A stretch of DNA of 64,000 nucleotides from Alphaproteobacteria bacterium. Lineage in GTDB: Bacteria; Pseudomonadota; Alphaproteobacteria; Micropepsales; Micropepsaceae. This document shows, in pieces, positions 27,889-37,299 of the stretch. The notes under the pieces are model-generated. The model did no database searches. It saw only the letters and a list, made by a program, of their open reading frames with translations, and had not been told where the DNA came from. The stretch is taken from contig CANJLC010000003.1 in NCBI GenBank assembly GCA_947475445.1, forward strand, positions 1 through 64,000, given 5' to 3'. The translations under genes were made by a program, and so were the position numbers. Every line of letters begins with the position of its first letter. The stretch's first letter is position 1.

Positions 27889-32517
<4,629 letters not shown>

Positions 32518-32599
32518 AAAACCCCAACGACTTTATTACGTCATGAAAATCCGCCCGCCTCCTCCGAAAAGGAATGCGGCCAGACATTCAGGCCTGCAG

Positions 32600-32620
32600 A
32601 ATGCTGGATATTTCAGCATT
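32600..32620. promoter_or_regulatory. Inverted repeat upstream of gltB
   Basis: AATGCTG (32600-32606) and CAGCATT (32614-32620) form a perfect 7-bp dyad with a 7-bp AT-rich spacer, 83-103 bp upstream of the gltB start. Size and position fit a dimeric regulator site. No candidate regulator is adjacent. Confidence 0.35.
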
Positions 32621-32739
32621 TCGGGAGTTGCGCCGCAACATGACAGGTACGCGCACCTGGCTTGACGCTGCAGGACGGCAGAACCAGACTGAAACATATC
32701 ATGAACAAATCTTAGAAAATATAGGATTTACGACATTTT

Positions 32740-32984
32740 TTGGCGCGCTATGGCCTTCCCCAGGAACGGCCCTTGCTGCCCTTGGGGCTGGAGAGCCTGG
32801 ACCAGGCGCTGGGCGGCGGATTGATGCCGGGCGCCCTGCATGAAGTCCATGCCGGAGACTGGAGCGCCGGCGGCTTGGCCGCTTGTCTGGCCATCCGGGC
32901 AGCGGGCGGCAAACCCGTTTTCTGGGTGCGGCCCGATTATGAGGCGCTGGAATATGGCGCCCTCCATGCGCAGGGCTGGGCGAT
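32740..32984 (+). pseudogene. imuA: imuA fragment (SOS mutagenesis, RecA-like), 3' part deleted
   Basis: About 80 codons resemble the N-terminal part of ImuA, the RecA-like partner of ImuB and DnaE2 in SOS mutagenesis. The pattern is LPLGLESLDQALGGGLMPGA, then LHEVHAGDWSAGGLAACLA, then a beta strand PVFWVRPD. After HAQGW (near 32978) the similarity ends, and the DNA reads instead as the 5' end of a gene on the opposite strand. The remaining open frame to 33087 is not ImuA-like. The start would be TTG at 32740. No imuB or dnaE2 follows. It is best read as a remnant. Confidence 0.6.
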
Positions 32985-33107
32985 GAGCAGGCTGGCGACA
33001 AAGCCCACGCCCATGATGGTGCTTACAATGGCAACGATCCAGCCGAGCGCAGAGATGCGGGCCGCGCGCCGGCCGGTGGCATCATAGAAGACGGGTTTGC
33101 TGGCCAT
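32937..33107 (-). pseudogene. 5' fragment of a membrane-anchored polysaccharide deacetylase/glycosyltransferase-like gene
   Basis: A 56-codon frame begins ATG at 33107 with KPVFYDATGRR and then one hydrophobic helix (about residues 22-43). This N-terminus resembles the cytoplasmic tag and anchor of large bacterial polysaccharide-deacetylase/glycosyltransferase fusion proteins. The frame then runs into imuA DNA read backwards and stops after 14 unrelated residues. It is a truncated gene fused to the imuA remnant. The family call rests on a short motif and is tentative. Confidence 0.4.
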
Positions 33108-33269
33108 TGCATCTTTATGGAGCAGCCGGTTTTGCGGGTGCCCCTGTGTAGCCGAGCCGCAGCGTCAGGGCGTGGCAAAATTCCGGCAGGAACCTTAAAG
33201 AAAAGCAAGATGACCGCTGGCCGGCTGTGCTATCGGTGATTTGCCACCAACTCGGGAAGGTCATTTTTA

Positions 33270-33632
33270 GTGGGTTACAATTGTGCGAAATGTCCAGGTT
33301 ATTGCTGCTCCTATCCCGTGATCCCCCTGACCAAGAAAGACGTGACCAGGCTGGCCGATCATTTCGGGCTGGGCTTCAAGGAGGCGCGCAAGAAATTCAC
33401 CAAGGTTGATGGTGACGAGCCCTATGCCATGCGGCGCAAGGAAGACGAGCATTATGGCCGCATCTGCCGCTTCTTTGACACGGAGGCCCGGCGCTGCACC
33501 ATCTATACGGCCCGGCCCACCATCTGCCGTTCCTATCCCGGCGGCAATTCCTGCGGCTATTTCGATTTCCTGCGCGCCGAACGCAATTCGCAGGAAGACC
33601 CCACCCACGTCGCTTCCACATGGAATAAGTGA
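33270..33632 (+). CDS. YkgJ-family cysteine cluster protein
   Basis: Small cytoplasmic protein of 120 residues in the Fe/Zn-chelating YkgJ (UPF0153) family. The N-terminal cluster is C5-x2-C8-x3-C12-C13, followed by Cys66 (GRICRFFD), Cys76 (RRCTIY), Cys86 (TICRSYPGG) and Cys95. These eight cysteines are the family hallmark; function is unknown. The start is GTG at 33270. The next gene is 130 bp away and unrelated. Confidence 0.88.
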   Translation: MGYNCAKCPGYCCSYPVIPLTKKDVTRLADHFGLGFKEARKKFTKVDGDEPYAMRRKEDEHYGRICRFFDTEARRCTIYTARPTICRSYPGGNSCGYFDFLRAERNSQEDPTHVASTWNK

Positions 33633-33762
33633 GCCGGTCCTGGCCGGCCGTCCCGCCTTGCGGGAATGGTGCAGTGCAACAGCGCGATGGCCTTGGCCGC
33701 AGCGACTTTTTTTGCTCTAACGGGCTCACAAAATCGTAATGCCGAAAAGGCACGGGGAACAA

Positions 33763-33990
33763 ATGGACAATCTGCCGAAGCCGGGCCAGCCACAGGCCCA
33801 GAAATTTCATCCAGTATATCTATTCCTGGCGGTGCCGTTCGTGTGCCTGCTGTGGGTGCCGCTGTACAACCGCATCGAACCCAGCCTGCTCGGAATTCCC
33901 TTCTTCTACTGGTACCAGATGCTTTGGACCATCCTGGGCGCCCTGTGCATTTTGCCGGTCTATCTGCATGAGGAGCGTCTGCGCAAATGA
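33763..33990 (+). CDS. DUF3311 small membrane subunit of an SSS transporter
   Basis: Protein of 75 residues with two transmembrane helices (about 17-35 and 46-67) joined by a short loop with PLYNRIEPSLLGIPFFYWYQ, the DUF3311 pattern. Genes of this family almost always precede a sodium:solute symporter, as here with an ATGA overlap, and may encode an accessory subunit. The start at 33763 has GGGGA in front; an ATG 24 bp upstream was rejected. Confidence 0.88.
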   Translation: MDNLPKPGQPQAQKFHPVYLFLAVPFVCLLWVPLYNRIEPSLLGIPFFYWYQMLWTILGALCILPVYLHEERLRK

Positions 33991-35543
33991 CCGTCAATCC
34001 TGTCGCACTTACGGTATTTCTGCTGCTCTTCGCGCTGGTCGCGTGCCTGGGCTTTGTCGCCACCAAGTGGCGCAAGGCCGACCTGCACAGCGTTCACGAA
34101 TGGGGCCTGGGCGGCCGCAGCTTCGGCACCCTGATCACCTGGTTCCTGCTGGGCGGCGACCTCTACACCGCCTACACCTTCATCGCCGTTCCTGCGGCCA
34201 TGTATGGCGCGGGCGCCACCGGCTTTTTCGCGGTGCCCTACACCATACTTATGTACCCGCTGCTGTTCCTCTGCTTCCCGCGTCTGTGGGCCGTGGCGCG
34301 CAAGCACAATTACGTCACCGCCGCCGACTATGTCCGTGGCCGTTTCGGCAATCGCCATCTGGCGCTGGCTGTCGCGCTCACCGGCCTCATGGCCACCGTC
34401 CCCTATGTCGCCCTTCAGCTGGTCGGCATGCAGGTGGTGATCGCCGCCCTGGGCATCCCCTCCTCCTGGGCGCTGGGCGGCTTTGCGGTTCCCGTGCCGC
34501 TGCTGATCGCCTTCATGGTGCTGGCGGCTTACACCTACTCCAGCGGCCTGCGCGGCACCGCGCTGACCGCGGTGGTCAAGGACGTCCTGATCTATGTCAC
34601 CGTGCTGACGGCGATCATCGTGATCCCCAGCCAGCTCGGCGGCTATGAGAAAGTCTTCTCGACCATCGATACCAAGATGCTGCTGCTGGTGCCGCCCAGT
34701 GAAACCAGCGCCGGCCAGGGCATTGCCTATGCCAGCCTGGCGGTGGGCTCGCTTCTGGCGTTGTTCCTGTATCCCCACTCGCTGACGGGCATCCTGTCGT
34801 CCGCCAGCTCGTCGTCGATCCGCAAGAACGCCATCCTGCTGCCGATCTATTCGCTGGCATTGGCGCTGCTGGCCCTGCTCGGCTACACGGCGGTGGCGGC
34901 GAACATCAAGGGCATGCCGGAATATGCCGCGGGCTTCACCGCCTTCGGCAACAATTTCGCCATTCCCGCCTTGTTCCTGCACTCCTTCCCGGGCTGGTTC
35001 GCGGGCGTCGCCTTTGCGGCCATCGCCATCGGCGCGCTGGTTCCCGCATCGATCATGGCGATCGCCTCGGGCAATCTGTACACCCGCAATATCTACAAGG
35101 AGTTCATCAACCCGAACTGCTCCGAGGCCCAGGAAGGCCGCGCCGCCAAGCTGGCGTCGCTGACCATGAAGCTTTTTGCGCTGGGTTTCGTGCTGCTATT
35201 CCAGACCTCCTACGCCATCCAGCTGCAGTTGCTGGGCGGCGTCTGGATCTGCCAGACGCTGCCGTCGGTGCTGATCGCGCTTTATACGCGCGCTTTGCAT
35301 CCGGTTGCGCTGCTGGCGGGCTGGGCCACGGGCATGATCTCCGGCACCGTCATGGTGTATCAGCTGAGCCTGAAGAGCACGACCTATCCGCTCGACCTGT
35401 TCGGCTACACCGTGCCCTGCTATGCGGCGATCATCGCGCTGATCCTCAATATCGCAGTGGCCGTCATCGGCAGCGTGATCATGAACGCGATCGACAAGTC
35501 GCCCCGTCTCGACCAGACGGTGCCGTCCGACTATGTCGGCTGA
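33987..35543 (+). CDS. Sodium:solute symporter (SSS), monocarboxylate-type
   Basis: Inner-membrane Na+-coupled importer of 518 residues with about thirteen helices. SSS features include WGLGGRSFGTLITWFLLGGD near the N-terminus, TAADYVRGRFGN and SASSSSIRKNAILLPIYSL. It overlaps the DUF3311 gene by 4 bp. SSS proteins with DUF3311 partners include the MctP monocarboxylate permease of rhizobia. With lactate permease and malate synthase following, a pyruvate/lactate/acetate-type substrate is likely but not shown. A strong terminator follows. Confidence 0.88.
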   Translation: MTVNPVALTVFLLLFALVACLGFVATKWRKADLHSVHEWGLGGRSFGTLITWFLLGGDLYTAYTFIAVPAAMYGAGATGFFAVPYTILMYPLLFLCFPRLWAVARKHNYVTAADYVRGRFGNRHLALAVALTGLMATVPYVALQLVGMQVVIAALGIPSSWALGGFAVPVPLLIAFMVLAAYTYSSGLRGTALTAVVKDVLIYVTVLTAIIVIPSQLGGYEKVFSTIDTKMLLLVPPSETSAGQGIAYASLAVGSLLALFLYPHSLTGILSSASSSSIRKNAILLPIYSLALALLALLGYTAVAANIKGMPEYAAGFTAFGNNFAIPALFLHSFPGWFAGVAFAAIAIGALVPASIMAIASGNLYTRNIYKEFINPNCSEAQEGRAAKLASLTMKLFALGFVLLFQTSYAIQLQLLGGVWICQTLPSVLIALYTRALHPVALLAGWATGMISGTVMVYQLSLKSTTYPLDLFGYTVPCYAAIIALILNIAVAVIGSVIMNAIDKSPRLDQTVPSDYVG

Positions 35544-35564
35544 AGCTGCGCATAATGCATGAGT

Positions 35565-35597
35565 AAAAAGGCCGCCCGCATGGGCGGCCTTTTTTTT
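35565..35597 (+). terminator. Rho-independent terminator after the SSS gene
   Basis: AGGCCGCCC (35569-35577) pairs with GGGCGGCCT (35582-35590) and is followed by seven more Ts. The preceding A-run makes it symmetrical, but the genes on both sides read plus. It separates the SSS unit from lldP. Confidence 0.9.
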
Positions 35598-35625
35598 GAC
35601 AGACGTTGGGCCTGGGGGAATGAAG

Positions 35626-37299
35626 ATGGGTGTCTGGAATCAAGTCTATGACCCGCTGGGCAATGTGGTCCTGTCCACCATCGTGGCGGCATTTCCCATT
35701 GTCCTGCTGCTGGGGCTTATCGCCAGCGGCAAGGTCAAATCCCACTGGGCGGCGCTGATCGCCCTGGCCGCCATGATGGCGGTGGCCATTTTCGCCTATG
35801 GCATGCCGGCGCAGATGGCGGCCAAGGACGCCGCATACGGTTTCGTTTCGGGCTTCTTCCCCATCGGCTGGATCATCGTCAATGTGATCTTTCTCTATCG
35901 CCTGACGGTGGAAAAAGGCCATTTCGCGGTTTTCCAATATTCCATGGGCCGGATCACAACCGACCGGCGCCTGCAGCTGATCATCGTCGCCTTCTGTTTC
36001 GGCGCGTTCTTCGAGGGAGCGGCGGGGTTCGGCACCCCGGTGGCGGTTTCCTCCGCCATCCTGATCGGCCTGGGATTTTCGCCGCTGGCGGCATCGGGCA
36101 TTGCGCTGCTGGCTGATACCGCCACGGTGGCCTTTGGCGCCCTGGGCGCGCCCATCACCGCGCTTTCCGCCTCCACCGGGATTGATCCGTTTCTGCTGGG
36201 CAAGATGATCGGGCGCCAGTCCTGCATCTTCGCGATGACTGTTCCCTTCGTGATGGTCTTCATGTTTTGCGGCTTCCGGAAAATGCTGGAAGTCTGGCCT
36301 GCGCTGCTGGTGGCGGCGCTGGGCTTCACCATTCCGGCCTTCCTGATCTCCAACTATTCCAACCCCTATATTGTGGACGTGGTGGCGGGCGCCACGGCGC
36401 TGGCCAGCATGGTGCTGTTCCTGCGCGTGTGGCAGCCCAGGGAGATCATGACCAACGCGGCGCTGAATTTCGCCGATGACTCCCATAGCGACTTGAAGCC
36501 GCCCGTCGCCCTGGCCGTCGCGCCGACCACCCGGGAGATGGTCAATGCCTGGATTCCCTGGCTGATCCTGTGCGTCGTGGTGGCCTTCTGGTCCAGCGAT
36601 ACCCTCAAGCACCTGGTCAATCCGCTGTTCTCGCCCAGCTATCCGATCCCGGGCGTGGACAAGATGATCATCCAGATGCCGCCGGCCTTCGCCCACCCAA
36701 CGCCGCTGCGTGTGGGTTTTTTGCCCTTCGCCTTTCTCAGCTATGCCGGCACCGGCATCCTGGTGGCGGCGCTGATCGCCGGCGTGACGATGGGCTTTGG
36801 GCCGGCTGCGCTGCTGCGGCACTATCTGAAGACCTTCTATGTCGTGCGTTATCCGCTGCTCACCATCACCGCCATGCTGTCTCTGGCCGCGGTCACCAGC
36901 GCCAGCAGCGCGGACGGCACCTTGGGGCTGGCATTCGCCAACACCGGCGTCCTTTATCCCTTCTTCGGCACCTTGCTGGGTTGGCTGGGCGTGGCGGCGA
37001 CGGGGTCCGACACGGCATCCAATGCGCTGTTTGGCGGCATCCAGATGGTGACGTCCGGCCAGTTGGGAATTTCGCCCCTGCTGATGGCAAGCGCCAATGC
37101 GGTCGGCGGTTCGGCGGGCAAGGTGATCTGCATCTCCTCCATTGTGGTGGCGGTGGCGGCCACCAACTGGCATGGCGGCGAAGCGCGGATCCTGCGCTTC
37201 GTGTTCTGGGTGTCGGTGACGTTGGGTTGCGCCATCGGCGTCCTGACCATGCTGCAGGCCTATGTCTGGCCCTTCACCCTGACTGTGCCGCTGGGCTGA
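35626..37299 (+). CDS. lldP: L-lactate permease family transporter
   Basis: Inner-membrane lactate (and glycolate) permease of the LctP family, 557 residues with about fourteen helices. The family core [18 protein letters not shown] lies near residues 127-144, and [19 protein letters not shown] and a C-terminal [15 protein letters not shown] region are present. The start was taken as ATG at 35626, which puts GGGGGA at a proper distance; ATG 35620 and the upstream frame through the terminator are less likely. Glycolate import would feed the malate synthase encoded next. Confidence 0.9.

Follow-up and report, generated by a model that had tools for sequence, protein, structure and literature searches.

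The window, meaning the whole 64,000-nucleotide stretch analysed here, carries two gene fragments that meet head-on between gltB and ykgJ (Table 1). A sequence-only reading had followed imuA on the plus strand to about 32978, and comparison with a relative, G009, extends the alignable part to 32979. Its identification of imuA stands, but its frame from 32740 missed the start, an ATG at 32701 followed by TAG codons at 32713–32715 and 32722–32724. On the minus strand, the same reading had recognized the first 43 residues of a KPVFYD-type membrane protein (kpv), and 43 codons indeed run from 33107 down to 32979. This is a 5' fragment, as proposed, and its identity can now be added: the whole gene in G009 encodes a GH18/polysaccharide deacetylase/GT2 fusion of 1140 aa, of which the window keeps 4%. 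In the gltB–imuA intergenic region, the palindrome GTTGCGSCGCAAC (32627–32639) is a possible regulator site.

Table 1. Features around the imuA–kpv junction in the window.
Feature	Position	Strand	Basis or remark
gltB, left neighbour, kept	27889..32517	-	Divergent from imuA; 1542-aa ORF, syntenic in relatives
Palindrome GTTGCGCCGCAAC	32627..32639		gltB–imuA intergenic, upstream of gltB; kept in most aligned relatives (8 loci aligned; exact scan)
Degenerate SOS (LexA) box AAACATATCATGAAC, 7/8 key bases	32692..32706	+	Locus alignment and scan
imuA 5' remnant, 93 codons, TAG at codons 5 and 8	32701..32979	+	Sequence comparison
Putative deletion junction, 7-bp overlap of imuA and kpv alignments (microhomology)	32973..32979		blastn against G009
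kpv 5' remnant, 43 codons (MASKPVFYD...)	32979..33107	-	From a ~1140-codon GH18/polysaccharide deacetylase/GT2 gene
YkgJ-type CxxCxxCC protein gene, right neighbour, kept	33270..33632	+	Divergent from kpv

G009 is the closest relative examined, and there imuA and kpv are whole and convergent. The order is gltB (-), imuA-imuB-dnaE2 (+), a gene for a 462-aa membrane protein (+), kpv (-) and ykgJ (+). By blastn, window positions 28894–32979 align with gltB and imuA of G009 at 87.7% identity and positions 32973–33639 with kpv and ykgJ at 78%; both alignments fall on one G009 contig, 9.9 kb apart (9891 bp between matching points). The remnant matches lie far beyond chance (E = 5e-37 for imuA, 3e-18 for kpv). 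Whole genes between the same neighbours also occur in G001 and G016, and imuA and kpv are convergent on one contig, some 8.6–11.7 kb apart, in G009, G014, G001, G016, G012, G017 and G022. Thus the predicted arrangement, imuA-imuB-dnaE2 beside gltB, exists in relatives with a full-length kpv facing it, and relatives show whole genes or different fragments rather than the same small fragments conserved as genes.

N-terminal queries matched 24 of 41 genomes for imuA and 23 of 41 for kpv (E up to 0.1). The named loci were anchored on ykgJ among the best 80 of 209 relatives, and within those 80 gltB and ykgJ are both visible in 11 loci, with imuABC whole in 8 and kpv whole in 5. L174, L190 and L217 have imuABC with kpv absent from the site, and L164, L166 and L203 are without whole imuABC. 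The imuA-imuB-dnaE2 cassette (imuABC) is described in a review as a LexA-controlled mutagenesis cassette (PMC3901139). The relatives' loci resemble it closely: the three genes follow in order behind a GAAC-N7-GAAC box, the G009 DnaE2 passes NF004225, and ImuB carries IMS and DUF6504 domains. The window, in contrast, retains just 93 imuA codons with two stops.

We conclude, with high confidence from these comparisons, that the window most probably holds a true chromosomal scar left by one ~9.9-kb deletion of an ancestral imuABC–kpv interval. Of the "deletion (or inversion)" first proposed, the deletion holds, with 9.9 kb of the G009 locus absent, and an inversion is not needed because flank order and orientation match relatives. 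Taking G041 as a proxy, both junction arms share TGGGCG (6 bp), so the microhomology amounts to 6–7 bp; random breakpoint pairs drawn on the G009 locus match by at least 6 bp in 0.3% of cases and by at least 7 bp in 0.1%. Joining would then have been by illegitimate recombination at this microhomology. A 25-nt inverted repeat (80%; 32899–32923 versus 33086–33110) also flanks the junction; it arises because both fragments encode KPVF and is probably there by chance.

The window genome, G000 (2.17 Mb, 98.4% complete), looks like a metagenome bin, with 29 contigs of which one, C21, is apparently foreign, and a misjoin of two ends during assembly or binning could in principle produce such a junction. 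Searches of all contigs found no second imuA, imuB, dnaE2 or full kpv; the further kpv matches in G000 reach 24–32% identity to parts of glycosyltransferase or deacetylase domains. Since the missing genes are found nowhere else in a 98% complete genome, which has only DinB and DnaE1 left, misassembly is unlikely. Moreover, the join unites true neighbours in correct order and orientation, the 6–7 bp common to both ends are short for an assembler merge, and no misjoin would create the nonsense codons and SOS box damage of the imuA remnant. The earlier caveat of an assembly error thus becomes highly improbable, and a true deletion remains our reading.

The removal of imuB and dnaE2, earlier made conditional on their having followed imuA, is borne out by their position between imuA and kpv in G009. 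G000 lacks the whole ImuA, ImuB and DnaE2 that the imuABC mutasome requires, and still has DinB, LexA and DnaE1. Its single Y-family (IMS) match scores with other DinB-class matches, and no UmuC-type polymerase was found in the genome. Of the 25 genus genomes (G000–G024), 20 give DnaE2-level matches; the others, G000, G006, G015, G018 and G021, have DnaE1-level matches only or, in the case of G018, none at that threshold. The missing genes and the relatives' intact cassette support the proposed loss of the SOS mutasome at this site, and we infer that ImuABC-dependent SOS mutagenesis has been lost from G000.

Two LexA copies in G000 suggested a lexA2-imuABC cassette elsewhere, a candidate we rejected: no DnaE2 or ImuB was found, and C21 looks foreign. 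On this 17-kb contig (G000:C21:1-12000, L100), lexA and what we take from the sequence to be trp genes are 75–84% identical to copies on contig C1. C21 itself appears to be either a foreign piece within the bin or a duplication. A plasmid search gave no match, and rpoB had no match in G000 and several relatives despite the 98% estimated completeness of G000.

The imuA remnant shows decay of its own. An SOS box GAAC-N7-GAAC with 8/8 key bases is present at imuA in every one of 14 distinct loci from relatives that keep the gene whole here (6 aligned and 8 scanned; G012 and L167 included though gltB is off the contig or locus; L165 and L176 left out as duplicates of G017 and G014). By scan, the G002 and G023 boxes are 8/8. 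The box is 7/8 in all three truncated-imuA loci (G000, G015 and G018), and the window has no GAAC-N7-GAAC at imuA. The scan window showed no full box in L003, L007, L009, L010, L011, L013, L014 and L016: three of these eight (G009, G012 and G015) are covered by the alignment or other loci, the scan having covered the wrong flank or overlooked the start, and the other five (G013, G011, G003, G007 and G004) have another gene order or short contigs and lie outside the 14-locus count. G014 has no LexA match in its whole genome, though its imuABC and SOS box are intact.

An AAAC box is common to G000 and G015. A shift in LexA specificity behind it was considered and rejected: the lexA box reads GAAC-N7-GAAC in both G000 copies, G015 and G006, and intact loci show the middle T as well. 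The box of lexA itself is intact in 11 of 11 loci checked; LexA specificity is therefore unchanged. Changes by codon position in the imuA remnant gave no signal of relaxed selection (8/5/12 versus 4/5/9 and 9/4/20), so the case for its decay is made by the pair of TAG codons and a single base of the box. With two nonsense codons, a weakened SOS box and 4% of kpv, the leftovers are, to judge from sequence, non-functional. The relatives' SOS box (at the site corresponding to window 32692–32706) overlaps the first imuA ATG, an arrangement that would fit a leaderless transcript or a start located upstream.

We also considered that the fragments are retained as a new small gene or regulator, such as a 115-aa fused frame at 32740–33087 or an SOS-controlled small RNA. 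From a TTG at 32740 this frame is indeed open, and codon changes in the imuA remnant are no more relaxed than those in relatives. Yet the original imuA start meets a TAG after four codons, there is no Pfam match, and no fused product is conserved because the relatives' scars have different breakpoints. This possibility is barely credible, and we return to a deletion with non-functional leftovers.

In the model we favour, the ancestor would have carried gltB (-), imuA-imuB-dnaE2 (+), a membrane glycosyltransferase-like gene (+), kpv (-) and ykgJ (+), as G009 does. One illegitimate ~9.9-kb deletion, or several nested ones, joined at the microhomology, would have taken out imuB, dnaE2 and the membrane gene whole, together with imuA beyond codon 93 and kpv beyond codon 43; loss of the 462-aa membrane gene presupposes a G009-like order in the ancestor. 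Both endpoints would fall only just within the divergent promoters of the kept gltB and ykgJ. Because gltB/imuA and kpv/ykgJ are divergent pairs with shared promoter regions, the reach of a tolerated deletion would be limited, and both 5' ends probably survive since deeper deletions would cut the gltB and ykgJ promoters.

Locus comparison indicates that at least four relatives have undergone similar losses here, with breakpoints other than those of G000. The cassette is lost from the gltB-flanked site in G041, G015, G018 and G006, in genomes all of 2.5 Mb or less. In G041 (the genome of L164, CANJIS010000015.1), imuA is whole with an intact SOS box, and imuB, cut near codon 137, is fused to kpv cut near codon 103; no DnaE2 was found there, and its Y-family matches are DinB and the imuB fragment only. 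G015 joins a frameshifted imuA remnant to dnaE2 codons 854–891, and G018 joins an imuA remnant with a TAG to the dnaE2 3' end. In G006, ~410 bp separate gltB from ykgJ, and at most a short trace of imuA is left. G021 also lacks imuABC, and gltB was not seen beside its kpv.

The scar of G041 raises the alternative that both it and the G000 form descend from a common ancestral scar, later enlarged: G041 is a close relative with an imuB–kpv fusion at the same site, and a nested second deletion would yield the G000 form. A likelihood tree built from window genes in place of rpoB, which has no match in G000 (12,530 columns; G018 left out), groups G009 with G041 at 100/100, with G000 outside, and places G015 with the intact L217 and L190 (97/90) and G006 alone. 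Because G009 has the whole locus and yet groups with G041, the G000 and G041 deletions are separate in this tree; in G041, moreover, imuA and its SOS box are still intact. Under parsimony, the site patterns for the G000/G009/G041 trio are nearly even (173:156:156), so the independence of the two deletions rests on the likelihood tree. A shared scar is thus very unlikely, and we keep to separate deletions.

Genomes without imuABC (n = 6; 2.17, 2.2, 2.2, 2.3, 2.5 and 3.0 Mb) are smaller than the 23 with it (Mann-Whitney, one-sided p = 0.0019, kinship ignored), as they are among genus genomes alone (5 versus 20; Mann-Whitney p = 0.0016, kinship ignored). Sizes are rounded, bins differ in completeness, and G045 was left out of the size test. 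The exceptions are G042, with imuABC at 1.8 Mb, and G021, without it at 3.0 Mb. Some of the named bins are presumably of freshwater origin, to go by isolate names.

Two genomes without imuABC, G006 and G015, carry adjacent umuD and umuC (L102:4997-8925 and L103:1591-3301), an alternative inducible mutator (DNA polymerase V) after imuABC loss that is, in contrast, absent from the window genome. Transfer is the likely origin of these umuDC genes, because a phage-type integrase lies nearby in G006 and the two copies are more alike (91.8% DNA identity over 1710 bp) than gltB (83.3%). UmuC scores 385, below the NCBIfam cut-off of 431. G000, G041 and G018 have a DinB-class match only, imuB remnants aside. 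A review describes UmuDC and ImuABC as mutually exclusive (PMC3901139); in G005 and others UmuC-like matches occur alongside DnaE2, and the exclusion may not be strict in this genus.

Deletion scars associated with microhomology and paired pseudogenes occur in reducing bacterial genomes, and the window resembles them in its small genome, 5' remnants and 6–7 bp junction overlap. It differs in that five genomes have lost the same cassette at one site through differing breakpoints. Taken singly, the scar is a commonplace case of reductive gene loss; what is new is that such loss recurs at one site. Perhaps, and we offer this tentatively, the gltB–ykgJ interval is, in this alphaproteobacterial genus, a recurrent promoter-bounded deletion site at which shrinking lineages repeatedly discard the inducible mutasome, some then gaining polymerase V on mobile DNA and some having no SOS mutator. 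If so, nature has supplied a series of knock-outs. Through the repeated, structurally distinct losses, closely related genomes exist both with the cassette and without it, and natural comparisons among them could test how mutation spectrum, GC content and genome size respond when SOS mutagenesis is lost. Literature searches found nothing for imuB with genome reduction and, judged by abstract, nothing on the subject for streamlining with SOS. One study ties the presence of DnaE2/ImuB to genomic GC and infers that losses took place in parallel on deep branches (PMC9927291); compared with those deep-branch losses as described there, the losses here are recent enough to show scars.

To the right of the scar, window positions 33731–35641 hold two genes between ykgJ and a lactate permease gene, which we take from their sequence to encode a DUF3311-type small membrane protein and a sodium:solute symporter. 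In G009 and G041 the corresponding stretch is only ~40–50 bp long.
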